Assembly: GCA_902768125.1 (NCBI GenBank)
Contig: CACXKA010000022.1
Coordinates: 1 to 38,827, forward strand
Direction of reading: 5' to 3'
DNA from: an uncultured Bacteroidales bacterium
Lineage (GTDB): Bacteria > Bacteroidota > Bacteroidia > Bacteroidales > Bacteroidaceae
Length of the DNA: 38,827 nucleotides
The notes under the pieces were generated by a model. That model was not told the DNA's origin. It was given only the letters and a program-made list of their open reading frames with translations, and ran no database searches. Positions 6,766 through 38,459 of the stretch are shown here, in pieces; the stretch's first letter is position 1, and every line of letters starts with the position of its first letter. The position numbers were made by a program, and so were the translations under genes.

Positions 6766-6778
6766 CGTTTCAATTCCA

Positions 6779-8203
6779 CTATTTTTTCAATTCATAAGAG
6801 ACGAACCATAAGCCAAGGAACGTGAGCAGCCCATTGAACATCAACATCTCATACCCAAACTTATAGTCTGTGAATTGCTGCACCACAGCATCTATCATGA
6901 GGCAGATGATGGGGGATGCAATCGCTATGTAGGGGACAAACGCCGAACGAGGCTGACGTTTCGTGAACATTCCAAAAGCAAAAAGTCCGAGTAACGGGCC
7001 ATAGGTATAGGACACCAAGGTGTATATCAAATCCATCACGCTTCCTGAGCCAAGCGCATTAAAGGTCATCGTGACAAGGAAGAATGTCACCAGCATCCCC
7101 AGATGAACTTGCTTACGCGTCTTCTCTTCCTTCTCTTTGCCCAAGATGTCGATGCAGAAACTGGTGGTCAGCGCCGTCATGGCTGAGTCTGCAGAGGAGA
7201 AAGCGCTGGCAATGACTCCAATCGTGAAGAAGATAAGACTGGTGGTACCCAACGTTCCATCGAGAACGATGTCAGACAGCAAATCGTCTCCTTTCTCTGG
7301 AAGTGGCATCCCCATTTTCTGATAGAGAAGCAGGAGAAGAATGCCCAAAGCAAGGAAGAGAAAATTGACAGGGACGAAGAGCACACCATAAGAGCACATA
7401 TCCTTCTGGGCAGAGCGTAAATCTTTGCAAGTGAGGTTCTTCTGCATCATATCTTGATCCAAACCCGTCATGACAATGACGATGAAGATACCCGAAAGGA
7501 ACTGCTTCCAGAAATTCTGCTTGGAGGCAAAATCGTCAAACTCAAAAATCTTTGCATGAGAATCATTCCATACAGCAGCCATTGCCTGGGAAAAATTCAT
7601 ATCAAGCAAACTTGCCACTTTCACTAAAATCAGCACCAACGCCAATAAGAGGCAAAAGGTTTGCAGGAAGTCCGTCCATACCAACGCACGGATACCGCTT
7701 CTGCGCGTATAGAGCCATATCAGCAGTAAAGCACACAAGACAACGACGATGTAAGGCACAGAAAATGTGTCAGTCAAACACATCTGCAAGATGCGACACA
7801 CCACATAAAACTTAGCGGCGGCTCCCAATAATTTACTAAGGATAAAGAATGAGGCACCAGTCCGATAACTTGTCTTCCCAAAACGATGATCCAGATAGGT
7901 GTAGATGGATGTGAGCCTCATCTTGTAATACATAGGCAACAAGACAAAAGCCACCACCAGATACCCGACGATGAACCCAAAGCACATCTGTAGGTAGGTC
8001 ATATCAATGCTCATCACCCAACCTGGCACTCCGATAAAGGTCAAGCCCGAGATACTTGCACCAATCATTCCAAACGCCACCAAAGGCCAGGGTGACTGAC
8101 GATTACCATTGAAAAAAGCGGCATTGCCACCTCCCTTACCCACCAAGTGGGAGAGAAGCAGCAATACCACAAAATATAATATCACCGTGATGAGAACCAA
8201 CAT
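6779..8203 (-). CDS. Sodium:solute symporter (SSS/SLC5 family)
   Basis: 474 residues, almost all hydrophobic, with about 13 predicted membrane helices starting at the N-terminus. SSS-type features are GMIGASISGLTFIGVPGW in the second helix, a GADxD-like region near LVWTDFLQTFCLL, and the helical stretch with SAFSSADSAMTALTTSF, which provides the second sodium-site serines. The substrate cannot be named; in the family it may be sugars, amino acids, sialic acid or short-chain acids. The start codon lies 2 bases after the stop of the histidine kinase gene, so the two are almost certainly co-transcribed. That suggests the kinase senses, or is tuned by, the transported solute. SSS transporters are fused to or paired with kinases in other bacteria (CbrA). 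Confidence 0.88.
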   Translation of the reverse strand: MLVLITVILYFVVLLLLSHLVGKGGGNAAFFNGNRQSPWPLVAFGMIGASISGLTFIGVPGWVMSIDMTYLQMCFGFIVGYLVVAFVLLPMYYKMRLTSIYTYLDHRFGKTSYRTGASFFILSKLLGAAAKFYVVCRILQMCLTDTFSVPYIVVVLCALLLIWLYTRRSGIRALVWTDFLQTFCLLLALVLILVKVASLLDMNFSQAMAAVWNDSHAKIFEFDDFASKQNFWKQFLSGIFIVIVMTGLDQDMMQKNLTCKDLRSAQKDMCSYGVLFVPVNFLFLALGILLLLLYQKMGMPLPEKGDDLLSDIVLDGTLGTTSLIFFTIGVIASAFSSADSAMTALTTSFCIDILGKEKEEKTRKQVHLGMLVTFFLVTMTFNALGSGSVMDLIYTLVSYTYGPLLGLFAFGMFTKRQPRSAFVPYIAIASPIICLMIDAVVQQFTDYKFGYEMLMFNGLLTFLGLWFVSYELKK

Positions 8204-8205
8204 CC

Positions 8206-11200
8206 CTAACTTTCTGCCGATTTCGTCAGGTTAGCATCAGCATAAAGCGAGAACTTAGAGCCATATCCTGCCCTGCTATCCACATCCAGCTTCAGTCCCA
8301 TTCCTTCCGCCAATTTCTTCGCCACATGCAAGCCCAAACCCAAACCAGGAACAAAACCATCATCTTTCCAGAACAAGCCAAATGCCAGTTGTTGTTTTTC
8401 CTCTGGAATACCACATCCTGTATCTGCCACATAAAGTTCTACCTGATTAGCATTACCATGATAGTCAACACCTATCAGGATGAAACCACTCTTTGTGAAC
8501 TTCACAGCATTGCTCACCAACTGACTCATGATATACTTGACACGAGTACGGTCATTATTGATGATGATGCCTGGCAATAAGTCAAATACGTGCAGTTTAA
8601 CGCCCTCTGGCATCATGTCTTCCCAATCATGTGCCAGTTCTCTAACCAACTCTGAGGCATCAAAATCATTCTTCACATACTGAATACGTCCACTCTCAAT
8701 GCGCGAGAACATCAGGATATCCTCAATCATCGCAGAGAGGCTGGTATTGTTTGCCTTGATAATCTTGGCATACTCCGCCATTTCCTCTGGGGTGAACGCA
8801 TCGACAGGCATGCTGACCAAGACATCGCTGAATCCCACCACCGCATTCAACGGAGTACGTATCTCGTGGCTGATGGTTGTCAGGAAGTCCTCTTTTTGCT
8901 TCGCCTCTTCTGCCAGCAACATCGCCTTACGCAGATTCTCCTCATACCGCTTCGTCTCATCAATGTTGATCAAGATACCATCCACATTCTTTTTGTTGGT
9001 CTTTGGATCGAACATCACCACAAAGCGCAACTGCCACCAACGGAAATTATCCTTCTGGTCAATGTCGGCACAAATCTCATAACTATGCGTTCCGGCAATG
9101 TCAATTGACTGCATGATAAGCGGTATCTCACTCGAATAATCAGGATGCACATGAGAAATGATCTCTCTCAGATTTGCCTCTGTACGCACAGAGTGGCTAT
9201 CAGCACCATGCAGTGCCATCTGTCGCATTTCGGCACGACGCTTGACACCTTCAATCAGAATCTGAGCCGACCTGCTCTTCCATGATTGCAGCACCATGAT
9301 GATGGAGACAATGGCAACAAGGAAGATGAAGACAATGATAATCCATGATGCATAAGTGTAGATGGGCGAGATTTTCTCCATTGGAGCACCGACAATGACG
9401 AAACGACTCTCATAATCCTTATACTCCATTCCCAATCGCTCCATCGCATCATAATCCATGTAGTATTTTTTCTGATGCGTGATGCCCACGAAAGAAGACA
9501 TGTCTGCACCCTTCAGAATTTCGGATGCAACCCTTGCCATATCAGAACCCACCGTCTCGTAACCTGCGAAATAGCCACACAGATACCTGCCTCGTCCATC
9601 GGCAAAGCCTGCCTTCACAGCTGTATATTGCGGACGTCCAGTCTTATCAGCGATAGAGGAACTATAGAGGTCTCTCTTCACAACCAAGGATGGGTATAGC
9701 CAAGAATGGACAAAGACATTTCTCAAGTTATTATAACCTTCATCGCGATCCTGAATATTGGCAGAGTTACGTTCTGGAGATTCTGCTGAAAATACCAACA
9801 CAAGCACACTATCCTTCCAAATGGTTGACAGATCTTCGTCCTTGAAGCCTGTCACATGGAAGTCAGAGTTATCCACGTATGGAGGTCGTGCGATAGCCTG
9901 TCTCAATTCATTTCGAATCATCGAATCCTGTTCGAAATAATCAAGCTCAATCTCCACACAATTCCGTCCCGACATCTCAGAAGCCAGATTGATGTTTGTA
10001 CAATAATCGATAGGGTCATTGATGACCACAATATTATTGTGCTTCCTGATAAATTCCCATTTTGGATGGTGCAAACCACCCAATACAATTGGAATTGAAT
10101 CAAATTCTGGAATCGGAGCAGATTCCCACCAATCTATGATATCACAGGCAGCACGGTCACCTTCCGTCAGCACAATGTTGGGCTTCCACTTCATCATGAT
10201 CATTGAATCCTTCAAGGCATAATGAATGGATTTCGTTGTGTTGACTGGGTTCTCCAAATCGAGATAAACATGCCTGATATCAACATTAATTCCATTGTTA
10301 CGGAAAGTCTGCAAGATATTATCATTCAATTCCCTATAACCAGGAAATGACTTGTCGTAGCTATGGTAGAACAGCACTCTGGCTGTCTTTTCTTCTCTGT
10401 CACCCTTCATCGAGCAAGATGATGGCAACAGGAAGCCTATACCCAGGGTGAGAATCAAGAGTAAGCATTCCACCATTTTGGTCAGGCGGAAGAAGAACTT
10501 ACTACCCTTGCCTATTTCACTCTCCACACCAATCGTACCATTCTGTTTCTCCATGATAGTCTTGCTGATGTTTAGACCAAGACCCGTTCCCTTGTCCGTT
10601 TCGTTCACCTTGATGTAGCGTTCGAACAGCTGAGCCTGTTTTTCTGGTGCCACACCAATACCTGTGTCTTGTACATACACCTCCACCATATCGGGGTTGT
10701 CATCCATATATTTCCAGCCTAACGTGACACTTCCCTCTGTAGTGAACTTGAAGGCATTGCTCAAGAAGTTGTTCACCACCTGCTTCGTACGAGTGGCATC
10801 AATATTGACCATTGCATCAGGTTCAACGGTTTCGAGCTTAAACTCAAGATGGGTAGGAGCAATGATATAGTTGGTCTTGTAACATTCATCCACCAGTTTC
10901 TGAATAGATACAGGCTTCTGAATGATTTCAAGGTCACCTGTCTCTATCTGTGCTTTCTTCATCACACTATCAATCATATTCAGGATCATGTCCGTGTTCT
11001 GGTGAATCACTTCGCCATACATCTCTCGTTCTCCCTCTTCGAAGGTCATGCCTGGAGTGGTCAACATAGATGAGAAACCGGTGACGGCACCCAGCGGTGT
11101 GCGGAGGTCGTGACTGATGTTTGCCAAGAAATTCTCCTTCAAAGCCACCTGACTCGCCAAAATCTGCGCCTGTTCCAGTTTTTCCTCCGTTTCCTTCTTC

Positions 11201-12801
11201 TGGTCGATGTTCAACAACAATCCATACAATTCGTTCTTCTTGGCAGACTCGTCCGTTGCTGTGTACATCGCCTCAGCCCAATACCAGTTCTTCCCCTCAT
11301 CAGGTGTCAGATGCAGACGCACAGTCTTTCTTCCTCGCTGATTGCGGAAGTTTCTCAAGAACTCAAACGAAGCCTTACTATCTTCGTGCACCATTTTCTC
11401 CGCCTCATCAAGCGACAGGCGAGAAGGCACTTTGAAGAAATCGCAGAATTGCTGACCCAACGTAAACACTTCATCCTTCAGAAGCCAGAAAGTGTCCTTC
11501 GAGTCAGAGAACATCAGATCGTGCACCTTTTCCTCATACTGTAACTCGTCCATCAAGCTCATCTGACCTTTCCATCTCCATTTCAACATGAGATAGACAA
11601 TCACATAGACGATGATACCAATCAGGAGAATGAGCACACCCACCTGTAAGGCAAACTGCAAAGGTTTCTCCAGATAGAAAGGAGCATTGATGATTTTGAA
11701 GTCCTCGCTGTAGGTACTATACGACATCTTCGGGAACATCTTCTGCATGGCATTCCAATCGAGATAGTAACCACTCGCATGAAAGCTAATCGGCAAAGAT
11801 TTTGGCTGTTCACCTTTCAAGATACGCACGGCATACGACACCTGGTCTTCCACCTGAGTCTCAGTGCTGGTGAAATAGCCACCCCAAAAACGCACATTCT
11901 TCGGATCATTGAACTGCTCACGCACACAAGTGAACTGAGGAAGGTCTGTATGGTCAATGATCGAATTACCGACAATACCACCAGTCCTCACCTGTAATTG
12001 CCACATCTTCTTTGCATTCTGATAGAAGAAACTTGTCGTTGCCTTACCCACCGAATCAGACTCGCCTTCAGCACAATTCCTAAAGGGGAACGCACATGAA
12101 ATAAAATTCACCACAGCCAATCCTGGATATTTCTTCTTCAGATATTCCTCATCCAGATTCTTCACTCTGAAATCTGAGTTGTTGATAAACCTCGTGGAAT
12201 CCCTGAGTTCTTCCTCAAACTGATGACGCATTCTATTATCGGCTTCTCGATAATCCAACTCGATAGTGATACACTGTGTCTTCACCAGTTTCATCATCAG
12301 CTCAATATTGCGTACCAAATCCACTTTTGCCTCAAAACCCGTCATTTTCGGAAATCGGTAAAGTGAGTCACGCAACAACGAGTGCACACCCGAAAAGACG
12401 ATAGGTGTGTTGATCAAGAGCGAATCTATGTCTGGATGAAGGAAAAGCCATTCCACAATCGCATCATCATTCAACAAAATCACCTCGGGCTTCCACTGCT
12501 TGATTTGCTCTGAATACTTCGGCCAATCCACTCTTGTGAAAATGTCGGAGGGGCGATGCGGCATGTTACAATAAATGTGGTGGATTTCCACGGGCATGTC
12601 GTGACTCTTGAAAGCATTTTCCATGCTTTTGGAAAAGAGTTCCTTTTCTTCTCCAACACTATCCCACGAGTGGATGACCACAACGCTATGACGAGGTCCG
12701 GTTGACCTTGTTATATTGCTCACCTTACTACATGAACCCAACAATGAGATAACGATAATGAACAGTAAAGGTAAGATTCGAGACATATTATTATTTTTCA
12801 T
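8206..12801 (-). CDS. Tandem double sensor histidine kinase (two complete kinases in one chain)
   Basis: 1531 residues made of two complete sensor kinases. Unit 1 (1-775): lipoprotein-like signal ending LLGSCS; a periplasmic ABC-substrate-binding-like sensor (VVVIHSWDS...); a membrane helix near VGVLILLIGIIVYVIVYLML; a PAS-like region; HisKA with ISHDLRTPLG (H564); and HATPase_c with VQDTGIGVAPE and GTGLGLNISK. Unit 2 (776-1531) repeats this: signal-like MVECLLLILTLGIGFLLPSS, sensor (VLFYHSYDKSFPGY), helix at SWIIIVFIFLVAIVSIIMVL, PAS-like, ISHEIRTPLN (H1312), and ADTGCGIPE with GLGLGLHVAK. There is no receiver or DNA-binding domain. The old signal peptide of unit 2 would act as an inward-to-outward helix, so the alternating topology works. 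I chose the ATG at 12801 because the promoter's transcription start lies downstream of the ATG at 12849. It leads the operon with the symporter. Confidence 0.9.
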   Translation of the reverse strand: MKNNNMSRILPLLFIIVISLLGSCSKVSNITRSTGPRHSVVVIHSWDSVGEEKELFSKSMENAFKSHDMPVEIHHIYCNMPHRPSDIFTRVDWPKYSEQIKQWKPEVILLNDDAIVEWLFLHPDIDSLLINTPIVFSGVHSLLRDSLYRFPKMTGFEAKVDLVRNIELMMKLVKTQCITIELDYREADNRMRHQFEEELRDSTRFINNSDFRVKNLDEEYLKKKYPGLAVVNFISCAFPFRNCAEGESDSVGKATTSFFYQNAKKMWQLQVRTGGIVGNSIIDHTDLPQFTCVREQFNDPKNVRFWGGYFTSTETQVEDQVSYAVRILKGEQPKSLPISFHASGYYLDWNAMQKMFPKMSYSTYSEDFKIINAPFYLEKPLQFALQVGVLILLIGIIVYVIVYLMLKWRWKGQMSLMDELQYEEKVHDLMFSDSKDTFWLLKDEVFTLGQQFCDFFKVPSRLSLDEAEKMVHEDSKASFEFLRNFRNQRGRKTVRLHLTPDEGKNWYWAEAMYTATDESAKKNELYGLLLNIDQKKETEEKLEQAQILASQVALKENFLANISHDLRTPLGAVTGFSSMLTTPGMTFEEGEREMYGEVIHQNTDMILNMIDSVMKKAQIETGDLEIIQKPVSIQKLVDECYKTNYIIAPTHLEFKLETVEPDAMVNIDATRTKQVVNNFLSNAFKFTTEGSVTLGWKYMDDNPDMVEVYVQDTGIGVAPEKQAQLFERYIKVNETDKGTGLGLNISKTIMEKQNGTIGVESEIGKGSKFFFRLTKMVECLLLILTLGIGFLLPSSCSMKGDREEKTARVLFYHSYDKSFPGYRELNDNILQTFRNNGINVDIRHVYLDLENPVNTTKSIHYALKDSMIMMKWKPNIVLTEGDRAACDIIDWWESAPIPEFDSIPIVLGGLHHPKWEFIRKHNNIVVINDPIDYCTNINLASEMSGRNCVEIELDYFEQDSMIRNELRQAIARPPYVDNSDFHVTGFKDEDLSTIWKDSVLVLVFSAESPERNSANIQDRDEGYNNLRNVFVHSWLYPSLVVKRDLYSSSIADKTGRPQYTAVKAGFADGRGRYLCGYFAGYETVGSDMARVASEILKGADMSSFVGITHQKKYYMDYDAMERLGMEYKDYESRFVIVGAPMEKISPIYTYASWIIIVFIFLVAIVSIIMVLQSWKSRSAQILIEGVKRRAEMRQMALHGADSHSVRTEANLREIISHVHPDYSSEIPLIMQSIDIAGTHSYEICADIDQKDNFRWWQLRFVVMFDPKTNKKNVDGILINIDETKRYEENLRKAMLLAEEAKQKEDFLTTISHEIRTPLNAVVGFSDVLVSMPVDAFTPEEMAEYAKIIKANNTSLSAMIEDILMFSRIESGRIQYVKNDFDASELVRELAHDWEDMMPEGVKLHVFDLLPGIIINNDRTRVKYIMSQLVSNAVKFTKSGFILIGVDYHGNANQVELYVADTGCGIPEEKQQLAFGLFWKDDGFVPGLGLGLHVAKKLAEGMGLKLDVDSRAGYGSKFSLYADANLTKSAES

Positions 12802-12829
12802 GCCGGCTTCTTTAAGATTATTATGCTTG

Positions 12830-12859
12830 CAAAGATACAAAAAAAACAATCGTCACAAA
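12830..12859 (-). promoter_or_regulatory. Promoter of the kinase-symporter-methyltransferase operon
   Basis: -7 TATCTTTG (12830-12837) and -33 TTTG (12856-12859) on the minus strand, with an 18-base spacer. It lies about 28 bases upstream of the chosen start at 12801. The surrounding DNA is unusually A-rich on the plus strand. Confidence 0.6.
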
Positions 12860-12964
12860 AAAAAAACAAAAAAAAAGCACAAAAAGAGAATCTTTTTTGA
12901 TACAAACCCCACTTTTTCCTAAAAGGAGGACCTCATTTTATCAATTAGGGCACCAAAAACGTAT

Positions 12965-14263
12965 TTACGTCTTCCATATTCTCTTTCGCATGAAAGTCTG
13001 ACTGATTCCCCTCGTGGCAAGATAAGTGACAAAGGCAATCCATAATCCATGATTACCCAACCAAGGCACCAACAAAAAGTAGAGCAAGAAGAAAACCACC
13101 ATCCCTGAAGCCATCGAGATGAGCATCCCTTTGGTGGCAGTCGCTCCGATATAGACACCATCCCAGATGAAGGCGGCGATTCCGCACAATGGGAACAAGA
13201 GTGTCCAAGGCTGATACACTTGGGCGGTTTCCAAGACTGTCTCTTGATCGGTCAAGAGGGAAAGAAAGGCTTTCCCAAAAAGAAAATATGCCAACGTGAA
13301 AAGTGCTGCAACACCCCACCCCCAACGGAAAAGACGACGAACGGTGTCATCATAGATGACCTTCATCTTACCACCAATCGCTTTTCCCACCATTGCCTCA
13401 CCAGCAAAAGCAAAACCATCCATGATGTAACTGTAGAGCGTGAAAAGCTGCATCAGCATCGTGTTCACAGCCAACTCCATATCACCCTGCTTTGCTCCTG
13501 CTGCAATGAAGAAGAAGTGCACCAAAATGAGACAGCAAGTACGGAGAAAAATATCCTTGTTGAGCGAGAAGAATTTGATCAAAGCCGAGCTTGCAAAAGC
13601 AGTTTTCTTTTGATAGTACTTCTTGATTCTCAAATAATAAGGTACAAAGAACACCAAGGCAGAAATCAGTCCAATGTATTGTGCCAGCACCGTACCCCAC
13701 GCCACACCTTCTATCTTCATGTCAAATCCATATACGAATGTGAAACTCAGCACAATATTCGCCACATTCTGAATCATAGCCACCAGCATCGGAGCTTTCG
13801 AGTTTTGCATGCCTACAAACCAACCCGTTAAGACAAAAAGCATCAAGGCGGCAGGAGCACCCCATATACATATATTAAAATAGATACAAGTGAAAGCCAC
13901 CACTTCTGACGAAGGTCTGATAATCAACAACGCTCCTTCTCGGATAGGCACTTGCAGACACAGCATCACCATGGATATCACGATAGCCACCGACAATGCT
14001 CGCTGCATCACAGCCGCCACCTCAGTCAGATTCCTCGCCCCTAATGCCTGTGCCGTCATTCCACTTGTTCCCATCCGCAAGAAAGCGAACATCCAATAGA
14101 TGATGTTGAAGAGCATACCACCCACAGCAATGGCACCGATATAGGCAGCAGAACCCAGATGTCCCGTGATGGCAACATCCACCAACCCCAACAACGGTAC
14201 CGTGATATTCGACACGATACTCGGCAAGGCAATATGCAATATCTGCTTATCTCTCCGATTCAT
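12965..14263 (-). CDS. MATE family efflux transporter (DinF-like)
   Basis: A 432-residue integral membrane protein with about 12 helices in two six-helix halves. MATE signatures are visible in the first half: HIALPSIVSNITVPLLGLVDVAITGHLG, then MRMGTSGMTAQALGARNLTEV. The family exports drugs or metabolites by sodium or proton antiport; the substrate here is unknown. The start at 14263 (MNRRDKQILHIALPS) overlaps the stop of the oxidoreductase gene as ATGA, which indicates translational coupling. The frame is open about 30 codons further upstream, but that extension is Cys/Trp-rich and lies inside the oxidoreductase gene, so I excluded it. Confidence 0.9.
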   Translation of the reverse strand: MNRRDKQILHIALPSIVSNITVPLLGLVDVAITGHLGSAAYIGAIAVGGMLFNIIYWMFAFLRMGTSGMTAQALGARNLTEVAAVMQRALSVAIVISMVMLCLQVPIREGALLIIRPSSEVVAFTCIYFNICIWGAPAALMLFVLTGWFVGMQNSKAPMLVAMIQNVANIVLSFTFVYGFDMKIEGVAWGTVLAQYIGLISALVFFVPYYLRIKKYYQKKTAFASSALIKFFSLNKDIFLRTCCLILVHFFFIAAGAKQGDMELAVNTMLMQLFTLYSYIMDGFAFAGEAMVGKAIGGKMKVIYDDTVRRLFRWGWGVAALFTLAYFLFGKAFLSLLTDQETVLETAQVYQPWTLLFPLCGIAAFIWDGVYIGATATKGMLISMASGMVVFFLLYFLLVPWLGNHGLWIAFVTYLATRGISQTFMRKRIWKT

Positions 14264-27592: not shown

Positions 27593-27625
27593 TTTGGAAT
27601 TATAGATTTTTTATCCGTATTTTTG
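27593..27625 (+). promoter_or_regulatory. Promoter of the nucleotidyltransferase-lipoprotein/nucleotidase genes
   Basis: -33 TTTG (27593-27596), a 21-base spacer and -7 TATTTTTG (27618-27625), 44 bases before the start codon. Confidence 0.5.
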
Positions 27626-27669
27626 CATCGTGTAATTATTATCGTATACACATATTTAATAACCTTATT

Positions 27670-29685
27670 ATGAAAAAGTATTATTTTAGACTGAATGCTT
27701 GGATGCTCCTCGTGAGCATGCTTTTTGTGGCTTCCTGTTCGAATGACGACAATGTCACCAAGCCTGACAATCCCAATCCACAGGGGGAAGTAACAGAGTT
27801 TTACAGCGAAACCGTCAACAAGATGATTGAAGAAAACATCGCCTTGGTAAGGCAAAACGGCTATGCTGAGCTGGTGATTCCCGCCTCGCTCTATCCGAAA
27901 GACATGGTTAAGTTGCCTGCTGCCGACATGGAGACGATGGACATCGTGCTCAAGGCTGGCTACACAGCCTTCGTCAACGGAGGTGCCGTGCGCGACTGTG
28001 TGCTGGGTAAGGAGCTCCACGACGTGGACTTCTCCACCAATGCCACCCCTGATGAATTGGTAGCTGTGGTGCCCAACTCGCACAAGACACAGGCTGGCAA
28101 CATCACCATCGCCCAGGCTGAGCACGAGGGTGGCATCCGCACCGACATGGTGCCCTATCAAGGCATGGACATACGCCTGAAGGGGCTGCCCGGTATGCCT
28201 GATAGCGAATATTACGGTCAGGAGTACAGCAAGAACCTGATTGACGACTCATTCAGCCGCGACCTGACCATCAACTCCCTCTACTATGACTACAAGACAG
28301 GCGACATCATTGACTACCACGGTGGTTTATATGACTTGCGCGAGCACATCATCCGCACGCCTGTTGAGCCGAATTTGGCTTTCACCATTGACCCACAGTC
28401 CATGCTCCGTGCTGTCCGCTTTGCTGCACGCTATGACTTCACGGTGGAGGAGAACACAGCCCAAGCCATCAGGGATAACCTGACCAAGGTCGAGGAGATT
28501 AAGCCTGCGCTCCGTCGTTTTGTGGTGATGAAGGGCTTCTGCGACAAATGTGCCTTCCGCACCTATCAGTACAACGTGGAATATGGTGTCCTGGGCTACC
28601 TTGCTCCGATGCTGAAAGACTATATCGGCAATGCTGAGTATGAGGACTACCTAAAGAGCGTGTTCGACTATGTGGATGCACAGAAGGGCATGACAGCCGA
28701 CCTCGCCTATTGTATTCTCTTCATGCCTCCTGTGATGAAGGAACTCGGCGACCAGGAGCCAACCGTAGAGAACATCACGGCTGCCTTCGACAAACTGGAA
28801 CAGGGAAGCGGACAGGACAAGCTCTTCTGGTTGGAGGACTACCGCTTCACGAAGAAAGACCCGATGCTCATCTGGAGAAACTACCGTGCGATGATCAACG
28901 ATGCCACGCTCAAGGATGCAGCACTGGTGAGCAGCATCAGAAAGGAATACACCTTCAAGAGCAGTCTGCTGTTGCTCAATGCGATGGCTCAACGTGATGC
29001 CAGCCTGAAGAAATATGCTGACGAGTGGAACAAGGAAAAACCTTCTGCTACCGACCTCACATCGATGGAGAATAAATACACTGCCACAGACGGTGAGACC
29101 CTGACTGGCACGATGGAATACACATTGATTATCCCTGACGGAGCCACAGTGACTCTGGAGAATGTCGGTATCATGAATCAAATTGACTGTAGAGGCAGCG
29201 CCAAGATCATCCTCGCAAACGGCTCAACTAACATTATCACCAACGACGAGGGCTACGGCAGTGCGGTTTATACCACAGCCGACAAGACGCTGACCATCAG
29301 CGGTGAAGGTACTCTGTACGCTTTGGGCGGTCAGGAAGGTGCCGGCATTGGTGGCAATGGCGACATCGTGATTGAGAATGGTACGATCATTGCCTATGGT
29401 GGCGAGTATGGTGCTGGCATCGGCAGTGAGATGTACTCTCTATGTGGCAATATCACCATCAGCGGTGGTGAGATCATTGCTGTCGGCGGAACACAATCTG
29501 CTGGTATCGGTAGTGGTCAGGACGGAGAATGCGGCAACATCCTCATCAAGAGCACTGTCACCAAAGTCGCTGTCAATGCTGGTGAAGAATGTGACGCCCA
29601 CATCGGTGCTGGCGTAGGTGGCTCCGTCGGCAAGGTGACGATTGAAGATGAGTCAAAGGTCACCTACGACGCTGAGGATCTCTAA
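27670..29685 (+). CDS. Exported lipoprotein with CCA-adding enzyme/poly(A) polymerase head domain and beta-helix tail
   Basis: 671 residues. The signal peptide has a lipobox (LFVASC) and then SNDDN, an acidic stretch like the Bacteroidetes surface-export signal. About 45-100: an extra module (FYSETVNKMIEENIALVRQN, then LVIPASLY). About 100-255: a Pol-beta-type nucleotidyltransferase head of the CCA/poly(A) polymerase class. It has NGGAVRDCVLG (103-113), catalytic DVD (D118, D120), SRDLTINSLYYD (196-207), DYHGGLYDLREHIIRT and LRAVRFAARYDF. The EDxxR nucleotide-selecting motif is changed to IDPQS (240-244). About 255-455: helical, with a C-terminal module ending KKYADEWN. About 465-671: Gly/Ile-rich repeats (GAGIGGN, GAGIGSE, SAGIGSG) typical of a right-handed beta-helix. 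Cytoplasmic CCA enzymes have no signal peptide. Substrate unknown; activity unproven. Confidence 0.85.
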   Translation: MKKYYFRLNAWMLLVSMLFVASCSNDDNVTKPDNPNPQGEVTEFYSETVNKMIEENIALVRQNGYAELVIPASLYPKDMVKLPAADMETMDIVLKAGYTAFVNGGAVRDCVLGKELHDVDFSTNATPDELVAVVPNSHKTQAGNITIAQAEHEGGIRTDMVPYQGMDIRLKGLPGMPDSEYYGQEYSKNLIDDSFSRDLTINSLYYDYKTGDIIDYHGGLYDLREHIIRTPVEPNLAFTIDPQSMLRAVRFAARYDFTVEENTAQAIRDNLTKVEEIKPALRRFVVMKGFCDKCAFRTYQYNVEYGVLGYLAPMLKDYIGNAEYEDYLKSVFDYVDAQKGMTADLAYCILFMPPVMKELGDQEPTVENITAAFDKLEQGSGQDKLFWLEDYRFTKKDPMLIWRNYRAMINDATLKDAALVSSIRKEYTFKSSLLLLNAMAQRDASLKKYADEWNKEKPSATDLTSMENKYTATDGETLTGTMEYTLIIPDGATVTLENVGIMNQIDCRGSAKIILANGSTNIITNDEGYGSAVYTTADKTLTISGEGTLYALGGQEGAGIGGNGDIVIENGTIIAYGGEYGAGIGSEMYSLCGNITISGGEIIAVGGTQSAGIGSGQDGECGNILIKSTVTKVAVNAGEECDAHIGAGVGGSVGKVTIEDESKVTYDAEDL

Positions 29686-29745
29686 CACAGACAGTGCCTC
29701 ACATGGGCATGCACGATGATAGTCGATTCTAAAAATCGTATTTGT

Positions 29746-31332
29746 ATGAGATATTTAGTCATGAACTTACAGGCGACAATGTTGTTTGTCGCCTGTATGC
29801 TTTTGGGTTCTTGCAGCGACAAGGACAACAATGGGAATGAACAGTCTGCGGGGAGCAACAAGAGCATCGTCATCCTTTTTGAGAGCGATTCGCATTGTGA
29901 GCTTTCCGGTTATCCGAAACTTGCAGGACTGCGTGACGCCATCAACCGTAGTGATACAGCTTGGGCTGGAGTGGTCTGCTGTGGTGACTTCATGCAGGGA
30001 GGTGCCGCTGGCTCCATTTCCCAAGGTGCTTATGTCATCGATGTGATGAAGTCCGTAGGCTACGATGCCGTCACTTTGGGCAACCATGAATTTGAGTATG
30101 GTGGTCCGAATGTGATGACGCAGCTCCAGCAGTTGGGCGCGCCAATAGTTTGTGCGAACTTTTTCATGCATGGAGCTTCTGCCCCTGTCTATCCTGCCTA
30201 CACCATTCATCAATACGGCGGCAAGCGTGTGGCTTTCATCGGTGTCCTGACACCAGAAACCATCGTGACCCAGAAGTTTGCTTTCTACGACAGCGAGGGC
30301 AAGCAACTCTACGACCTGCCGGGCGAAGGATTGATGGACTTGGTGCAGCAGACCATCGACAAAGTGCGCTCCCAAGGTGCCGACTATGTGGTGGTGCTGT
30401 CCCATATGGGCGAACGCTCGAATATGGCACTCACTTCTCACGACCTGATCAAGGGAACGCGTGGCATCGACGCTGTGCTCGACGGACACACCCACTCTTC
30501 GATTGCGCATGAATGGGTGGAGAATCTCGACGGGAAACCTGTGCTGGTGGCTCAGACGGGCAACAAGTTCAAGCATATTGGCAAACTGGTGATTCAGAGC
30601 AACGGCGAGTTATCGACTTCGCTCCTGCCGACAGAGGAGATTATGGAGGTGAGTGCGTCTGTGACGCAAGCTGTGGAAAAGGTGCAGGCGAAGGTGCAAG
30701 AGCTGGCAAGCGTCGTGGTCTGTCATAGTGACTACGCGCTGATTGCCCAGGATGCCAACAAAACCACCCTCTCTACCCTCCAAGAGACAACCATCGGTGA
30801 CCTGACGGCAGATGCCTTCCTGCATTTCTACGATGAGGCAAACATCGCCATCCATACAGGTTCCTCGCTTTCCGTGGGTCTGCCAGCAGGCGACATCAAG
30901 AAGCAGGACCTGATGAATATGGTGCCTTTCGAAGATCAGATGTATCTCATCGAGGTGAAGGGTGAACTGCTTGTGAACACACTGGCGGGCTGCACGCAGA
31001 ACCTTCCAGGCTTTTGTGGACACTTCCCTCAGTGTTCGGGAATAAAATACACGGTGCATCAGAAAAGCCATACAGTGACCGACGTGATGGTGCTCGACCG
31101 CGAAAGCGGCAATTACCAGCCATTGAATATGGAGAAGAATTACAAGGTGTCGCTGGGCGTGTTCTATTCCAGCCTCGGCTTCCTCGGAATGTTGAAGGAT
31201 TGCAAGGTCATCGCGTTCGAATCCAGAACCACCCGTGATGCGATTGAGCAGTACTTGACCAAGGACCTCAAAGGTCAGTTGGGCGAAGCCTACAGGCAAC
31301 CGCAAGGACGTATCACGATAGTGGATGATTAA
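29746..31332 (+). CDS. 5'-nucleotidase-like lipoprotein (metallophosphatase plus 5'-nucleotidase C domain)
   Basis: About 528 residues. Signal peptide with lipobox (MLLGSC), then SDKDNN. The metallophosphatase half shows LFESDSHC (D48, H50), CCGDFMQGG, LGNHEFEYG, VVLSHMG and DGHTHSS, the metal-binding set of UshA-type enzymes. The C-terminal half resembles the 5'-nucleotidase substrate domain (TIGDLTADAFL, AGDIKKQDLMNMVPFEDQ). However, the usual N-x-GG-I-R segment is HTGSSLSVG, so the substrate-binding arginine is missing. It should dephosphorylate nucleotides or related phosphoesters outside the cytoplasm, but specificity may differ. It follows the nucleotidyltransferase lipoprotein by about 60 bases with no terminator between them, so they are probably co-transcribed. 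Start: 29746 or 29761 both give a good signal peptide; 29716 is less likely. Confidence 0.87.
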   Translation: MRYLVMNLQATMLFVACMLLGSCSDKDNNGNEQSAGSNKSIVILFESDSHCELSGYPKLAGLRDAINRSDTAWAGVVCCGDFMQGGAAGSISQGAYVIDVMKSVGYDAVTLGNHEFEYGGPNVMTQLQQLGAPIVCANFFMHGASAPVYPAYTIHQYGGKRVAFIGVLTPETIVTQKFAFYDSEGKQLYDLPGEGLMDLVQQTIDKVRSQGADYVVVLSHMGERSNMALTSHDLIKGTRGIDAVLDGHTHSSIAHEWVENLDGKPVLVAQTGNKFKHIGKLVIQSNGELSTSLLPTEEIMEVSASVTQAVEKVQAKVQELASVVVCHSDYALIAQDANKTTLSTLQETTIGDLTADAFLHFYDEANIAIHTGSSLSVGLPAGDIKKQDLMNMVPFEDQMYLIEVKGELLVNTLAGCTQNLPGFCGHFPQCSGIKYTVHQKSHTVTDVMVLDRESGNYQPLNMEKNYKVSLGVFYSSLGFLGMLKDCKVIAFESRTTRDAIEQYLTKDLKGQLGEAYRQPQGRITIVDD

Positions 31333-31337
31333 AAAGA

Positions 31338-31369
31338 AAAGGCCCTCCCAACGGAGAGCCTTTCTTTTT
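31338..31369. terminator. Bidirectional terminator between convergent lipoprotein genes
   Basis: Stem AAAGGC-c-CTCC (31338-31348), loop CAAC, GGAG-a-GCCTTT (31353-31363). TCTTTTT follows on the plus strand, and TTTTCTTTTT on the minus strand. It can serve both the nucleotidase and the converging nucleotidyltransferase gene. Confidence 0.8.
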
Positions 31370-31397
31370 GTATTCCTTTACAGAATTTTTCCATTCA

Positions 31398-34028
31398 TCA
31401 ATTCCAGAAAGTAGCGAACTTACTGAGCGAAGAATCACCCTTGGCGTAGCCATTCAGCAGGAGTTTTGCCTGATTGTAGAGTGCATTCGCCTTGATGGTC
31501 TTCACCTTTTCCGCATCAGCCATCGTGGCATCGGTGGTCATCTGCTTGTACAGACTCCAGGTGGTCATTGTCTCCGTCTTGGTGCCAGAGTAGTCATCCA
31601 ATTCGAAGATGGCTTTCTGTCCGCTCTCGCTCTCCAGATTGTTCCACAGGGCTGTGATGTTCTCCAAAGTGGGTTCTTGCGTGCCGAGGTTGTCCTCAAT
31701 GCAGGGCAGGAAGATGGCAGCGATAGCCAATGAAATTTTCTTGTTCTTCTGCTCGTCAAGATAGTCGAGGGCAGCGGTGAGGCGACTCTCGTAGTTCTTT
31801 TTGCGCAGATAGTCTTTCAGCATGAGGGCGAAGTGATCCAGGATGCCAAATTTGAGATAATATTGATAGGTGCGCGAGCCGCAACCATCGGTGAATCCTT
31901 TCGTCACATAGAAGTTTGCGAGTCCCTTGCCCAGATTGTCGCAGTAGTGCATGTGGTCGGTGATGGCCTTGGTCGTTTCCTGGTCGATGTCGAAGCCATA
32001 GCGAGCAGCAAAACGCACGGTGCGAAGGAGTGCCGAAGGATTGATGGGGAACATGACGTTGGCATCATAGACCGTGCGGATGATGTGTTCGCGCAAATCG
32101 TGCAGACCGCCGTGATAGTCGATGATATTGCCCGTCTGGAAATCGTAATACACAGCGTTGATGGTCAGGTCTCGGCTGTAGCTGTCGTCCAGCAGACTGC
32201 TGCTGTAGGTCTGTCCAAAGGCAGCCTCCAATGGGATTCCAGGCTTTCCCTCCAGACGGCTGTCGACACCCTTGATGGGCACGATGTCGGTCCAGTCACC
32301 ATTGTCGTGTAATGCCTGTGCGATATCACCACCACCCGTCGTGGAGACACGCACCTCATAGCTCGTGAGCTGTTCCTTCACCTGCTGAGGTGTGGCGTTG
32401 GTGGAGAAGTCCACATCGTGCACAGATGTGCCGAGAACGCAGTCACGCACGGCTCCACCATTGACGTAGGTCTTGAAGCCCAACTTATTCATGGCTGCCA
32501 TCACATCCTTATGGTATTGTGGGAACTGGACAAGGCTTGGGTCGTACATCGATGCAGGTATCACCAACTCGGCATAGCCATTCTGCATCACGAGGGGATA
32601 GTTTTCATCAATCAGCTTGTTCACCTCGTCGGAGAAGAAGGATGCAGATGCCGACTGTGGGTTCGACCAGAAGTCCGCGTAAGACTGCAGGGTGCTGTCC
32701 ATTGTGGCACGAGCCTTCAGGAAGCGGAGAGCCTCAGCGTAGTGGCTGTTTTCTTTCACCTTGCTGATCACCTCGCTGCTCCTGTAGGAGTCGCTGGTCA
32801 TCAGCTGTTGCAGCGTCCACACATCATTAATAAATGGCAGGGCGTAGCTATAGTCACCATACGACACCTTCTCGAATCTCAGAACGGCAGCATTGTCCTT
32901 GTCGATAGCATTCAGGATGTCGCTCACCGACAGCTGTTTGTTGGCAGCTGATTCAGCAGCAAATCGAGGCCAGAAGATGGCAGCATAACTGAGCGCCATA
33001 TCCGCTTTACCCTCCTTGTCGAATGCGTCGAGCATACCCAGCACGAAGTCGTCGTAGGCAGGTGTGTGCAGATAGTCCTTCATCGAGGTGTAGAGGAAGT
33101 CGGTCACCTTGTAGTAGTCTATCAGCTTAAAGAATCGCTTCGCAAAGCCGCCGTCGAATCCGCTGACGGTCTGATAGACAGCATTGTTCACGTCAATCTC
33201 TTTCAGCACATCCCAATGATTCTTCAGTGCCTGATCCAGCTCGCTGTCCATCTTAAAGTTATACTTCGCAGCAAAGCGAGAAGAACGGAAGAACTTACGT
33301 GCATCTTGGGACACCGACAAGTCGGCATTAAACACCGTTCTAACGATACCTTCGCGCAAGTCGTGCAGACCGCCGTGATAGTCGATGATGTCGCCTGTGG
33401 CATAATCGTAATACATCGCGTTGAACGTGTAGTCGCGGCTATAGGTGTCCTCCAGAAGGTCGGTGCAATAAGGCGAGTTGGGGAATTTCGTGACAGGCAC
33501 GTCAGCTTTTCCGCTCAGTTCTGGGAAGATAGAGAACATCGGAGCGATGTCGGTCTCAAGCTCTTCGCCGTGATACGCCTTTGCCACCCAGATATCGCGG
33601 AAAGCGTTGAAGGATTCCGCATGTGGCAGCACATCCTTGATTTTCATGATGTCGGCATCGGTGGTGAAGTCCACATCGTGAGCCTCCTTGCCCATGATAG
33701 CGTCGCGTACCGTTCCACCATTCACATAGACCTTATAGCCAGCCCTCACCATCGCCTCCATATCGCTGGTGGCATTGGCTGGGAATTTGAACATAGCCTT
33801 TGAGTACATCGATGCAGGAATCACCAACTTGGCATATCCCTTTTGTTTCACTTCAGCATAGTTTTCATCAATCAGTCGGTTAACATCTGTCGAAAAGAAC
33901 TCGGTCTTTTCTCCCTGGTTGGTAGCGGTATCGTCATCGCTACATGAAACTACGGTAAAAGAAAGGCTGCAGAAAAGGATGGCAGCCAACATCCACACAT
34001 TAAGGTTTTTCTTTTTCATATTTTTCAT
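31398..34028 (-). CDS. Exported lipoprotein with two tandem CCA/poly(A) polymerase-type nucleotidyltransferase domains
   Basis: 876 residues. Signal peptide with lipobox (FTVVSC) and then SDDD, a surface-export-like signal. Two homologous halves follow (about 30-440 and 445-876), each resembling residues 40-455 of the lipoprotein at 27670. Unit 1: FFSTDVNRLIDEN, LVIPASMY, NGGTVRDAIMG, catalytic DVD (D118, D120), SRDYTFNAMYYD, and QDARK (241-245) in place of EDxxR. Unit 2: FFSDEVNKLIDEN, LVIPASMY, NGGAVRDCVLG, DVD (D538, D540), SRDLTINAVYYD, and INPSA (662-666) in place of EDxxR. Each half ends in a module with a final aromatic-Trp (SYADFWSNP, KFATFWN). No beta-helix tail. A strong promoter at 34050-34080 lies downstream of the ATG at 34052, so I start at 34028; 34019 is equally possible. 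Function unknown. Confidence 0.85.
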   Translation of the reverse strand: MKNMKKKNLNVWMLAAILFCSLSFTVVSCSDDDTATNQGEKTEFFSTDVNRLIDENYAEVKQKGYAKLVIPASMYSKAMFKFPANATSDMEAMVRAGYKVYVNGGTVRDAIMGKEAHDVDFTTDADIMKIKDVLPHAESFNAFRDIWVAKAYHGEELETDIAPMFSIFPELSGKADVPVTKFPNSPYCTDLLEDTYSRDYTFNAMYYDYATGDIIDYHGGLHDLREGIVRTVFNADLSVSQDARKFFRSSRFAAKYNFKMDSELDQALKNHWDVLKEIDVNNAVYQTVSGFDGGFAKRFFKLIDYYKVTDFLYTSMKDYLHTPAYDDFVLGMLDAFDKEGKADMALSYAAIFWPRFAAESAANKQLSVSDILNAIDKDNAAVLRFEKVSYGDYSYALPFINDVWTLQQLMTSDSYRSSEVISKVKENSHYAEALRFLKARATMDSTLQSYADFWSNPQSASASFFSDEVNKLIDENYPLVMQNGYAELVIPASMYDPSLVQFPQYHKDVMAAMNKLGFKTYVNGGAVRDCVLGTSVHDVDFSTNATPQQVKEQLTSYEVRVSTTGGGDIAQALHDNGDWTDIVPIKGVDSRLEGKPGIPLEAAFGQTYSSSLLDDSYSRDLTINAVYYDFQTGNIIDYHGGLHDLREHIIRTVYDANVMFPINPSALLRTVRFAARYGFDIDQETTKAITDHMHYCDNLGKGLANFYVTKGFTDGCGSRTYQYYLKFGILDHFALMLKDYLRKKNYESRLTAALDYLDEQKNKKISLAIAAIFLPCIEDNLGTQEPTLENITALWNNLESESGQKAIFELDDYSGTKTETMTTWSLYKQMTTDATMADAEKVKTIKANALYNQAKLLLNGYAKGDSSLSKFATFWN

Positions 34029-34049: not shown

Positions 34050-34080
34050 CAAAGATACAACATCTTTTCAAAACAACAAA
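34050..34080 (-). promoter_or_regulatory. Promoter of the double nucleotidyltransferase lipoprotein
   Basis: -7 TATCTTTG (34050-34057), a 19-base spacer and -33 TTTG (34077-34080) on the minus strand: a full consensus match, giving a leader of about 15 bases. Confidence 0.7.
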
Positions 34081-34206: not shown

Positions 34207-35055
34207 TTACACCTTTTCCTTCATCTTCACATCCACCTCGTAATACTTTCCGTTTTCGAACGTAACATTTGGTTTGATGAATTTGTAGGTCTTTCCACCA
34301 ACTTTTGCTGTGAGGGTCACCTCCTTATCATTGAATCCTGGAATAGCCACATAGATCACGTTATCACCATTGGTGGTGTAAGTAGCCTCAGGAATAGTCA
34401 ACGACAGACTTTCAGTGTCATACTGAACGTTCAGTTCCGTCAGTTTCATCTTGGTCGTTCCATCAGAGTCTATGAATGTGAACTTCACAATGGCTTGCTG
34501 ACTCACGAATTCAGCATTTTGTACTCCAAGCACTTGGTCTGCTTTTATCTCAACTCTCAAATCTCTTGCTATGGCATAGTCATACTTTTCAGCAATAACT
34601 GCCAGCGTTCCTACCTGACCTGTATAATCCAAAACACCAGGACGCGGGAATTGGAGGGTCACGAAATGAGGATCACCGATAGCATCATCAACAGATGGAT
34701 ACGACCAACCTGCCGGGAGACTGATAACTCCGTTCAGTTGTGTGGTGGTTCCAGCTGACTGAGGCTGAAGAGAGCCTTCGAACCAAAAAGATTCACCAGA
34801 ACTCACCAACAGCCCTTGCACATAAACATGCTCCGTCGTTGCCCAAGTAGCATTGAGCGTGCCACCAGTAAGCGCCAAGGCACGGGTGGAAGCGTAGTTG
34901 GCACCTTCATCAGCACCCTTCGTGGCATTCACCGTCATGTAGTAGGTCTTAAACGTTTGGTGTTCTTCTTGACCTTGATGACCATCATCGTCTGAAGAAC
35001 ACGCTGCCAGCATAAGTCCTGCCAACAGCAATGTATGGAAATAAAAATTCTTCAT
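34207..35055 (-). CDS. Fimbrillin-like surface lipoprotein
   Basis: 282 residues. Signal peptide with lipobox (GLMLAAC) and then SSDDDG, a surface-export-like signal. The mature part is beta-rich, with the segment STRALALTGGTLNATWATTEHVYV, which resembles the N-terminal domain of Bacteroidales fimbrillin (FimA/Mfa1-like) proteins, and a C-terminal strand FENGKYYEVDVKMKEKV typical of the same group. It may be a minor fimbrial subunit or a stand-alone surface protein; no usher, tip or anchor genes are nearby. It is last in a three-gene operon 9 bases after the small protein at 35065 and ends just before a repeat array and terminator. Confidence 0.7.
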   Translation of the reverse strand: MKNFYFHTLLLAGLMLAACSSDDDGHQGQEEHQTFKTYYMTVNATKGADEGANYASTRALALTGGTLNATWATTEHVYVQGLLVSSGESFWFEGSLQPQSAGTTTQLNGVISLPAGWSYPSVDDAIGDPHFVTLQFPRPGVLDYTGQVGTLAVIAEKYDYAIARDLRVEIKADQVLGVQNAEFVSQQAIVKFTFIDSDGTTKMKLTELNVQYDTESLSLTIPEATYTTNGDNVIYVAIPGFNDKEVTLTAKVGGKTYKFIKPNVTFENGKYYEVDVKMKEKV

Positions 35056-36167: not shown

Positions 36168-36203
36168 TTTTAACTGTAACACTGTAACGCTGTAACGCTA
36201 AAC
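36168..36203. repeat. Octanucleotide array (CTGTAACR)
   Basis: Units CTGTAACA, CTGTAACG, CTGTAACG and CTAAAC between the P5-like start and the DUF3987 stop codon. The array overlaps the end of the DUF3987 reading frame. Confidence 0.65.
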
Positions 36204-38459
36204 ATGAATCTTTTGTTTATATTCCTTCGTCTTGCAATATCTGTCACTAATGTTATCGAATACAATGTAGCCTCTTTTTGTCCAGACACGCAAGGTGCTG
36301 TCACCGTTTCCACTCTTTCCCTGACTCTGCCTCATCAGATGATATTGCTCCTTCGAGAACTCATCGGGCAGTAACTCCAGTAAGTTCTGTGGTCCTGATT
36401 GGCGTTGCATCTCAACCTCCTCACGCAATTCCTTCTCCAACTGCTGACCAAAGTACAGCATCTTGCACCAGAGGTTGTACTGCTGCGTCCAGCGCACAAA
36501 GTCGGCAATCTCCTTGCTCCACTTATACCCGTGCGCCACATACAGCACCATTCCTTTGAGCCACGCAATCACATTCGCACGATATGAGAGCACCCTGTAC
36601 GCCTCAGAGTCGTAGAGCTTCACGGCATCTTCGTTCTCCTGCTTCATGTCGAGCGACAGCTTCTTTGCCTGCGGACACTCTATCAATCCGTTGGCAGCCT
36701 CCAGTCGGTCGATGTAGGGCTTCAGTTCCTCCGCAAAGGTTTGGTCGTAGATGCCCAAGATGGGAGGTGTGTCCTCGTCCTCTTCATTGCGGATGATAGT
36801 CGAGATGTCCAGTCGGCTCAGGGTTCCGTCATTCACCATCCTGCACAGGAATTTCTTAGCATTTGGCGGAGTCGTTGATGCGTTAAAGTTCCACCTCAAG
36901 GGGGCAATTCCTGATACCGAATCAGCACCTACACGCTCCTGACCAGCGTCGGAGTTGTCAAATGCCTTACGAATCAGCAGACCCACCTCATCGACCGTTC
37001 CCTTCGACGTCACCTTCTTCAGCGCCTCAATCTCATCAACGATGGTATAGATAAAACGCTGACCATTATTATGAGCGTCAATGATACGCTGGTTAAAGAC
37101 TGCATCAGTCAGATTATCAATGAGCATCTGAATGCAGATGTCCGTTGGTCTCGGGTCTTTCTTCTGCTTCGCACCCGGGTTCTTCTGCTTCCACTCAGCC
37201 TCTCGCTGACGGTTCGGGATGTCACGCTGCTTGATGTCCTCCATGATGTACTCAATCGGCTTCTTGATGGTGCCCTTGCCGATACTCTGCCGACCGATCA
37301 GGATGTTCATGAAAGTCGCCTCATGCTCCACATTGTCCCAGTAGCGGAACTTCACTCCGTGCAGGTGGGCACCCAGTGCAGGGAACACCGCATTCGCCAC
37401 AGCCGCCTTGTAGAACCAGGGCACATTCTTCGTCAGCAGCTTCACCAATGGAGGCAGCCGTTTCGGCATCGGTGGCGGTGTGGTCAGTGTGCCGCCACAA
37501 GCCTTCACAGCTGAAGCCGATTTCAGCGCATTCAGCACCTGTCTGAGTCGGTATGGCATTCCCTTCTTCGGCTCCTTCAGCGCATTCTCAATGGTCTTGC
37601 GCCATTCAGCCACATCCTCCTGCCTTTCCGTGCCCCAATAGTTCGGAATGATCTGCATCATCTTCTCCAACGAGTAGCCACAGATGCTGCGAATCGTCAC
37701 CGCCAGCTCGAAGGTCAGCACATTCCTGTCACCATCCACAGGCACCTTTCCCTCGTTGAACAGTTCCCAGTACTTCGCCACGATGTCAGAATACAGGATA
37801 CCGTTGTAGTCTTTGGAGGTTGGAGATTTGAGATTTGAGGTTGGAGGTTTAGGAGTACCGTCGTTGACTCCTTGAACCTTTGAACCTTGAACCTCTTGAA
37901 CCTTTGAACCTTGAACTTCTTGCCCCCCTTGAACCTCTTTCACTTCAAACACAGCATCATCCAAATAGATCAACTCTGCTTCCGTGGTCGTGAAAAACAC
38001 CCTTGTAATGTCCTTTGCTGCCTTGTCGAACTCCACACCCAGCACCTCGCTTGCCCATTTCAGGTTTTCCTCCTGAGTCAGTTCAGGCTTGCGCTTGAAC
38101 ACCAGATGATAGCCCGCACCTCGTGCACTCAGTTCCAGCATCAGCAAGCCCAGTTCCTCCTTCTTCGCAAGGATGCGCTTCTTCACAGCCTCCATTTCAT
38201 CAGCAGCGATGTGGTCGATGTCCATGCCCACGCTGCTGCTCATCCTCTTGCTGCCCTTCAGCGCACCGTCCTCGTTAGGCAGACAACTGTAGTTCATCTG
38301 GATCAGTTGGCTTTTCTGCTCCTCCTTGCCCTGACGAACAGCCTTCAGCACTTGGCGTTGCCTCACCGTGTTGCGACGGCTCAGGTACTCCTCTCTGTTA
38401 TGAATGGGGCGCATGAATTTTGCGCCACCATCCTTCTGATATACTTCAAATACACTCAT
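36198..38459 (-). CDS. VirE/BT4734-like and DUF3987-like protein of a mobile island
   Basis: 753 residues. The N-terminal part (about 1-175) resembles the BT4734/VirE N-terminal primase-like domain (GMDIDHI, LELSARGAGYHLVFKRK). Residues 178-216 are a low-complexity linker encoded by short tandem repeats (QEVQGSKVQEVQGSKVQGV). A PriCT-like helical region follows (about 220-310). The C-terminal part (about 310-730) is DUF3987-like, with a P-loop-like GRQSIGKGT and a Walker-B-like YTIVDEIEAL. Such proteins combine primase and helicase-like parts and are common in Bacteroidales mobile elements and phage-derived islands; the exact role is unproven. A truncated relative lies at 553-1007. Its neighbours are the P5-like gene downstream and a small gene upstream. 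Confidence 0.8.
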   Translation of the reverse strand: MSVFEVYQKDGGAKFMRPIHNREEYLSRRNTVRQRQVLKAVRQGKEEQKSQLIQMNYSCLPNEDGALKGSKRMSSSVGMDIDHIAADEMEAVKKRILAKKEELGLLMLELSARGAGYHLVFKRKPELTQEENLKWASEVLGVEFDKAAKDITRVFFTTTEAELIYLDDAVFEVKEVQGGQEVQGSKVQEVQGSKVQGVNDGTPKPPTSNLKSPTSKDYNGILYSDIVAKYWELFNEGKVPVDGDRNVLTFELAVTIRSICGYSLEKMMQIIPNYWGTERQEDVAEWRKTIENALKEPKKGMPYRLRQVLNALKSASAVKACGGTLTTPPPMPKRLPPLVKLLTKNVPWFYKAAVANAVFPALGAHLHGVKFRYWDNVEHEATFMNILIGRQSIGKGTIKKPIEYIMEDIKQRDIPNRQREAEWKQKNPGAKQKKDPRPTDICIQMLIDNLTDAVFNQRIIDAHNNGQRFIYTIVDEIEALKKVTSKGTVDEVGLLIRKAFDNSDAGQERVGADSVSGIAPLRWNFNASTTPPNAKKFLCRMVNDGTLSRLDISTIIRNEEDEDTPPILGIYDQTFAEELKPYIDRLEAANGLIECPQAKKLSLDMKQENEDAVKLYDSEAYRVLSYRANVIAWLKGMVLYVAHGYKWSKEIADFVRWTQQYNLWCKMLYFGQQLEKELREEVEMQRQSGPQNLLELLPDEFSKEQYHLMRQSQGKSGNGDSTLRVWTKRGYIVFDNISDRYCKTKEYKQKIHV
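37812..37920. repeat. Two short tandem arrays inside the DUF3987 gene
   Basis: 37812-37851 is a heptamer array of the GAGGTTG/GAGATTT family (as at 4384). 37869-37920 consists of CTTGAAC/CTTTGAAC units of 7-9 bases (as at 34139). Both are in frame and encode the linker between the primase-like and DUF3987-like parts. Confidence 0.85.

Follow-up and report, generated by a model that had tools for sequence, protein, structure and literature searches.

An uncultured Bacteroidales bacterium of the Bacteroidaceae (assembly GCA_902768125.1) carries, on a stretch of 38,827 nucleotides of contig CACXKA010000022.1 (referred to here as the window), three genes, named S, NT and D, that together make up positions 27670–34028. 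The original prediction, made from the sequence, had read them as two lipoprotein genes with three copies of a nucleotidyltransferase domain of the CCA/poly(A)-polymerase type and a nucleotidase between them, and Pfam together with a lipobox rule confirmed this arrangement. The enzymes of this nucleotidyltransferase group are known to work on RNA ends inside the cell, and the analysis suggests that in this case an RNA-tailing enzyme has been reused for something outside the cell. Gene S (27670–29685, plus strand, 671 amino acids) encodes a lipoprotein signal peptide assigned by the lipobox rule (residues 1–22, 27670–27735; acceptor Cys23 followed by SNDD), one module resembling PcnB, the poly(A) polymerase I (type B, 27793–29034; GGAVRD at residue 104, D118.D120, SRDLTIN at residue 196), and a C-terminal region (29047–29682, the start being approximate) in which Pfam recognises Beta_helix_3 repeats in three stretches, the best at residues 595–616. 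NT (29716–31332), a lipoprotein of the 5′-nucleotidase family whose acceptor Cys codon (29812–29814) precedes SDKD, follows S on the plus strand after a gap of 30 bp, and the two are likely to share one transcript; the true start of NT is possibly a later ATG (29746). D (31398–34028, minus strand, 876 amino acids) converges on NT and consists of a signal peptide assigned by the same rule (residues 1–28, 33945–34028; acceptor Cys29 followed by SDDD) and two PcnB-like modules, D1 (type A, 32646–33899; GGTVRD at residue 104, D118.D120, SRDYTFN at residue 197) and D2 (type B, 31401–32645; GGAVRD at residue 524, D538.D540, SRDLTIN at residue 618), the aspartates of all three modules being counted by eye. 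A TAnnTTTG-type box, presumably the Bacteroidota promoter form, was found by eye upstream of S (27618–27625, plus strand) and of D (34050–34057, minus strand).

The case for export comes from the N-termini. A lipobox rule that requires hydrophobic residues ahead of the Cys was passed by D, S and NT of the window, by D and S of a relative of the same genus (L011, which is contig 20 of genome G221, recorded from a yak omasum sample) and by D of L012 (the uncultured Prevotellaceae isolate RUG414), L013 and L014. With a lipobox in all eight N-termini checked, a cytosolic open reading frame (ORF) with an accidental hydrophobic start was rejected. Among 62 non-exported relatives, two passed the rule, both through the Cys of an active-site GGCVRD; a looser pattern that also flagged L025, L057, L062 and L073, all four having an active-site GGCVRD, had been replaced by this stricter one. 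The residues that follow the lipobox (CSDDDT in D, CSNDDN in S and CSDKDN in NT) give the three proteins the pattern of the lipoprotein export signal (LES), in which acidic residues come after the Cys. The accessible text of PMC6222051 describes S(D/E)3 after the Cys of vesicle-enriched lipoproteins of B. thetaiotaomicron and, for the export signal of SusG, Asp residues at +3 and +4 that are essential. Judged from the N-terminal sequences, export of S and D as outer-membrane lipoproteins is supported, and surface display is likely because the acidic residues after the Cys resemble this signal. The lipobox followed by an acidic stretch is shared with the surface-exposed LES lipoproteins of Bacteroides (PMC6222051, PMC5080379, in their accessible parts), but the cargo named in the accessible text of PMC6222051 consists mainly of putative protein and sugar hydrolases, with no mention there of a nucleotidyltransferase fold.

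Profiles and predicted structures support the CCA/poly(A)-polymerase fold of the modules, so that both the export, judged by sequence, and the fold proposed originally are supported. Pfam PolyA_pol matched once in S and twice in D. Among the NCBIfam models, S and D scored highest with the PcnB model TIGR01942, yet at 125.8 for S and 245.5 for D (both modules) they did not reach its cut-off of 305.65. The cut-offs of the CCA equivalogs were not reached by D (198.1 against 290 for NF009814, 155 against 438.8 for TIGR02692), and S scored lower than D on the NCBIfam CCA models. The closest solved sequences to both proteins are those of E. coli poly(A) polymerase (PAP), and in the predicted structures the PAP I fold runs past the head, through neck and body. 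The modules thus modelled appear to be near-complete PcnB-type units, closer in fold to PAP than to CCA enzymes. This ancestry is argued from fold and profile scores because the tree joins the exported clade to E. coli PcnB and seven viral rows only with a support of 81 in the Shimodaira–Hasegawa-like approximate likelihood ratio test (SH-aLRT), over long branches. Compared with E. coli PcnB (3aql, 3aqm, 3aqk), the exported modules carry a lipoprotein signal, stand two to a chain in D, and have an N-terminal helix (about residues 4–22) that lies mostly beyond the aligned range. Unlike class II CCA-adding enzymes (e.g. 1miv, 4x4w), they bear that signal and are without the EDxxR template; moreover, this genome has a separate cytosolic CCA-type enzyme of its own, the one further PF01743 match, with RRDFTIN and DDPLR. 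S and D, built on the PcnB plan, are therefore not to be filed as PcnB or as CCA enzymes, since the first Arg of motif B, motif D, the profile cut-off and the signal peptide differ. The FAM46/TENT5 poly(A) polymerases, matching weakly over 217–230 residues at 7–11% identity, are structural neighbours only. Three loci in the genomes of relatives (L025, L030, L047) encode CCA/PAP-like proteins that have no signal peptide and fall outside the main group of CCA enzymes in the tree.

The active site was compared in an alignment of ten exported modules and 59 other sequences, including E. coli PcnB, E. coli Cca and the genome's own CCA enzyme. The same 69 rows were used for the tree, with columns kept if filled in at least 8 exported and at least 35 other rows; the L014 modules (near-copies of L013 by eye), the viral near-copies L059, L061, L069, L070 and L085, and L082 (shorter than 300 amino acids) were left out. 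Twenty-five head–neck positions hold one residue in at least 90% of the 59 non-exported relatives. What is new here is that 20 of these 25 persist in all exported modules that span them, while base reading is lost or changed: the other five fall in motif B (its first Arg), motif D (EDxxR) and motif E. GG.VRD and the D.D of motif A are kept in all nine modules that cover them, the D2 piece of L012 being without this region. Motif B retains RD.T.N in 10/10 modules, and the first Arg of RRD, present in 59/59 others, occurs in none; the SRD-T-N motif had been read correctly at the outset, without noting that SRD replaces the RRD of the family. The Arg of EDxxR is likewise found in 59/59 others and in no exported module, where Lys (three type A modules) or otherwise Ala, Ser or Thr takes its place. 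The Asp, again present in all others, remains in six modules (type A and S), with Asn instead in the four of the D2 type; the corresponding residues are QDARK in D1 and INPSA in D2. In motif E, one Arg and one Glu are lost in all ten. The exported modules have in common a third, invariant acidic residue, at a position where both E. coli enzymes have Glu in the alignment. As far as the accessible text of PMC7730189 goes, motif A binds metals and motif B ribose, motif D serves as template for the base, and motif E lends stability to motif D and possibly contacts the primer; according to that of PMC11784652, when EDxxR of the human enzyme was randomised, no variant with another residue in place of the Asp or the Arg was recovered. 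On these motif roles, the metal and ribose residues would have stayed while the base-reading residues changed together, and this in both paralogue types and in all three lineages. The exported modules are also acidic, with isoelectric points (pI) of 4.52–5.05; E. coli PcnB has a pI of 9.67, and 62 non-exported relatives have a median of 5.93 (4.93–8.36, thus slightly overlapping). The N-terminal 45 residues of D1, D2 and S are more alike within the genome than the heads are, and less alike between lineages; exchange between the module copies could account for this.

The exported family is rare and belongs to a handful of uncultured bacteria related to Bacteroides and Prevotella. A profile search at 1e-40 found it in two of 45 genomes of the genus (this genome and G221) and in two of 13 genomes of the G171 genus. 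At the level of the family, four of 399 genomes hold it (1e-18), G171 and G199 being the other two; all four match at 2.7e-187 or better, and a wide gap separates them from the next match at 2.2e-26. Samples of the phylum (1/395, 1e-40) and of the order (1/393, 1e-30) yielded this genome only, a protein search gave 3/201, and a contig scan with six peptide patterns, limited in reach, gave two loci, L012 being found in this way. The exported type occurs in three lineages (this genome with G221, G171 with G199, and L012), and the counts for genus, family, order and phylum rule out a general Bacteroidota family as far as sampled. The 26 weaker family matches that were read (L024–L049) all have RRD and [ED]DxxR; a weaker match at G157:C31:1568-2188 (7.8e-22) has three internal stops. 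In the tree, the ten exported modules form one clade (SH-aLRT 99) that first splits into types A and B, with S within B, and G171 and G199 each have one D-like gene with the module order B-A. The ratios of nonsynonymous to synonymous change (dN/dS) between this genome and L011 are 0.070 for D1, 0.178 for D2, 0.132 for the S module, 0.260 for the S helix region and 0.129 for NT. S, NT and D are maintained under purifying selection, D1 most strictly. An origin from phages or plasmids was ruled against: 158 of 50,697 phage records match the modules, all below 60% identity, all 36 viral-contig loci show RRD, and no plasmid record matches at 1e-20. Among the 20 phage matches listed, the proteins are annotated as polyA/tRNA nucleotidyltransferase, hypothetical or not annotated.

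DNA comparison revealed that the genes occupy different places in close species. The only long match between the window and L011 is the D-NT-S unit (27609–33944, 93.5% over 6338 columns); the others are two matches below 40 bp and those between paralogous modules. Because the long match stops at the acceptor Cys codon of D (33944), the signal peptides of D differ in DNA between the two species. The L011 unit is flanked by ThyA and an ABC transporter; in this genome the corresponding flanks (98.7% and 93.7% identical) have another 5.3 kb between them, so that there is no clean empty site. This change of chromosomal place, together with a GC content that is 0.516 within the unit but 0.478 and 0.476 alongside, fits a movable or exchanged accessory unit. 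No element moving it was found in the material examined, and the window holds no tRNA, so a tRNA-linked insertion was rejected. The 5.3 kb between ThyA and the transporter in this genome (L134, 5150–10450) contains a homologue of the window ORF 35622 and a 738-residue ORF that resembles, by eye, a flavoprotein lipoprotein. Adjoining the movable unit in the window, a 753-residue protein (36198–38459) with weak BT4734-like and PrimPol-type matches is perhaps a mobile-element gene.

What has to be explained is the combination of these genes, their predicted fold, motif pattern, purifying selection, rarity and different chromosomal place, all established by computation. Our preferred reading, held tentatively and at less than even confidence, is that S and D belong to a surface family derived from PcnB in which metal–nucleotide chemistry has been kept and base selection lost or changed; the 'repurposed fold' that was among the options first considered thus fits best. 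A PcnB-type enzyme would have been taken over in a single event and provided with lipoprotein signal peptides; duplication would have produced types A and B, and the genes would have spread as rare accessories. With D.D of motif A, GG.VRD and RD.T.N in place, each module can most likely still carry out two-metal nucleotidyl transfer or bind metal–nucleotide, and we infer that its selection of the base is gone, given that the amino-acid template EDxxR and motif E have been lost or altered. The proposed product is a base-unselective surface nucleotidyltransferase that would act on extracellular nucleotides and some acceptor. A bolder form of this proposal, in which tandem poly(A)-polymerase modules on a movable cassette act as template-free surface nucleotidyltransferases, leaving the base unread and using RNA ends, glycans or proteins as acceptors, is doubtful.

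Several points weigh against retained, base-unselective chemistry. Free nucleoside triphosphates are scarce outside cells, and metal residues may persist in a mere binding protein. Lys replaces the Arg of motif D in three type A modules and the Asp stays in six, so that base preference may have been changed rather than lost. The loss in motif E is the least sure, as it rests on the alignment: its columns are filled in only 42–44 of the 59 others, and S has an Arg one and two columns away. The column of the third acid varies among the other relatives (A 21, E 10, D 8 of 50), which makes its alignment unsure, and invariance among ten modules from three lineages is weaker than it appears. As for selection, D2 has a higher dN/dS against L012 (0.292, 330 codons) than D1 (0.087), and synonymous change against L013 is mostly saturated. 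Finally, the frames of S in L011 (about 11319–13435) and of D in L012 (328–2980) are broken, by either decay or assembly error. A pure binding role is nearly as likely as retained chemistry. In that case the modules would be pseudoenzymes that bind nucleotides, oligonucleotides or some other phosphorylated ligand on the cell surface without transfer, a serious contender to which the altered base template and motif E in 10/10 modules, the acidity, the lipoprotein signals, the tandem arrangement and the beta-helix partner region of S all lend themselves. An inert protein accounts less readily for the invariance, wherever covered, of the metal residues, of GG.VRD and RD.T.N and of a third acid across three lineages and two paralogue types.

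The nucleotidase raises another possibility, a salvage unit in which NT dephosphorylates nucleotides that D and S capture or release. NT scores above the Pfam cut-offs for Metallophos (34.7 bits) and 5_nucleotid_C (76 bits) and reaches no specific NCBIfam cut-off (best model 114.7 against 1050); by eye it contains D.H, GNHE and GHTH, which we take to be motifs of 5′-nucleotidases of the UshA/NT5E group. S and NT lie similarly close in L011, where D, NT and S have stayed together at their different place, and an S-NT operon may exist in this one lineage. NT is, however, not a constant neighbour of D. The 16–18 kb surrounding D that were read in G171 and G199 hold no NT match above 80 bits, and in L012 none lies downstream of D, the upstream side there being a contig end; the genome survey thus gives no support to a conserved gene trio. 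Further, NT homologues (E ≤ 1e-30) occur in 20 of 121 family genomes; of the four module holders, this genome alone is one of these 20. A single surface system for nucleotides or RNA that includes the nucleotidase, as first suggested, is weakly supported, since NT adjoins PcnB-like genes here and in one close relative, and the salvage unit is unlikely. This genome has three NT matches, one with an internal TAA. Both an NT paralogue here (L140, G000:C5, about 2717–9102) and D of G171 and G199 (L013, 4314–12393) adjoin genes that by resemblance we assume to be LeuD, LeuC and LeuA, as if this leucine-gene spot accepts accessory lipoproteins.

Antagonism, with surface or vesicle-borne modules targeting the RNA or nucleotides of competitors, is improbable. 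The genes are sporadic and relocated, and the surface-type signal is tied to vesicle packing in the accessible text of PMC6222051. Against it, the acidic charge does not favour RNA binding, no immunity-like gene was recognised (though none was specifically searched for), and PADLOC gave no hit for S, NT or D, which also led to the rejection of a defence role. An ordinary CCA/poly(A) enzyme with a signal peptide, acting on RNA ends outside the cytoplasm with CTP and ATP, would agree with the fold and the residues of motifs A and B, but is very improbable because EDxxR is lost (Arg in 10/10 modules, Asp in 4/10, with no replacement recovered by the human-enzyme selection in the accessible part of PMC11784652) and the NCBIfam cut-offs are not reached. 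Least probable of all is an artefact (a protein not exported, a wrong start or a mis-binned contig), for although none of the four holder genomes is at least 90% complete, the signal peptides are conserved across three lineages, dN/dS is well below 1, and a C69 peptidase of the window matches 30 of 45 genus genomes (best 83% identity), so that the contig fits the genus.

Text searches of the open-licence literature, at the level of titles and listings, found no described exported member of this nucleotidyltransferase group, in agreement with the earlier statement that no such system is known to be described, though this is not proof of absence. The accessible text of PMC3482391 names nucleotidyltransferase toxins of the RelA/SpoT type. 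If the preferred reading of a surface PcnB-derived family is true, the export of whole tandem copies with the metal centre kept and the template dropped would be a natural experiment on the purpose of the template, and would hint that bacteria carry out chemistry on nucleotides, or capture them, at their surface in a way that these searches did not show to be described. Two neighbouring genes may be recorded as well. The gene downstream of D in L012 (3482–4075) has a marginal CdiA_C match (28.2 bits against 26.6), and the window encodes at 34207–35055 another lipoprotein, with CSSDDD after the lipobox and a faint likeness, far below the cut-off, to the N-terminus of the Mfa1 fimbria family.
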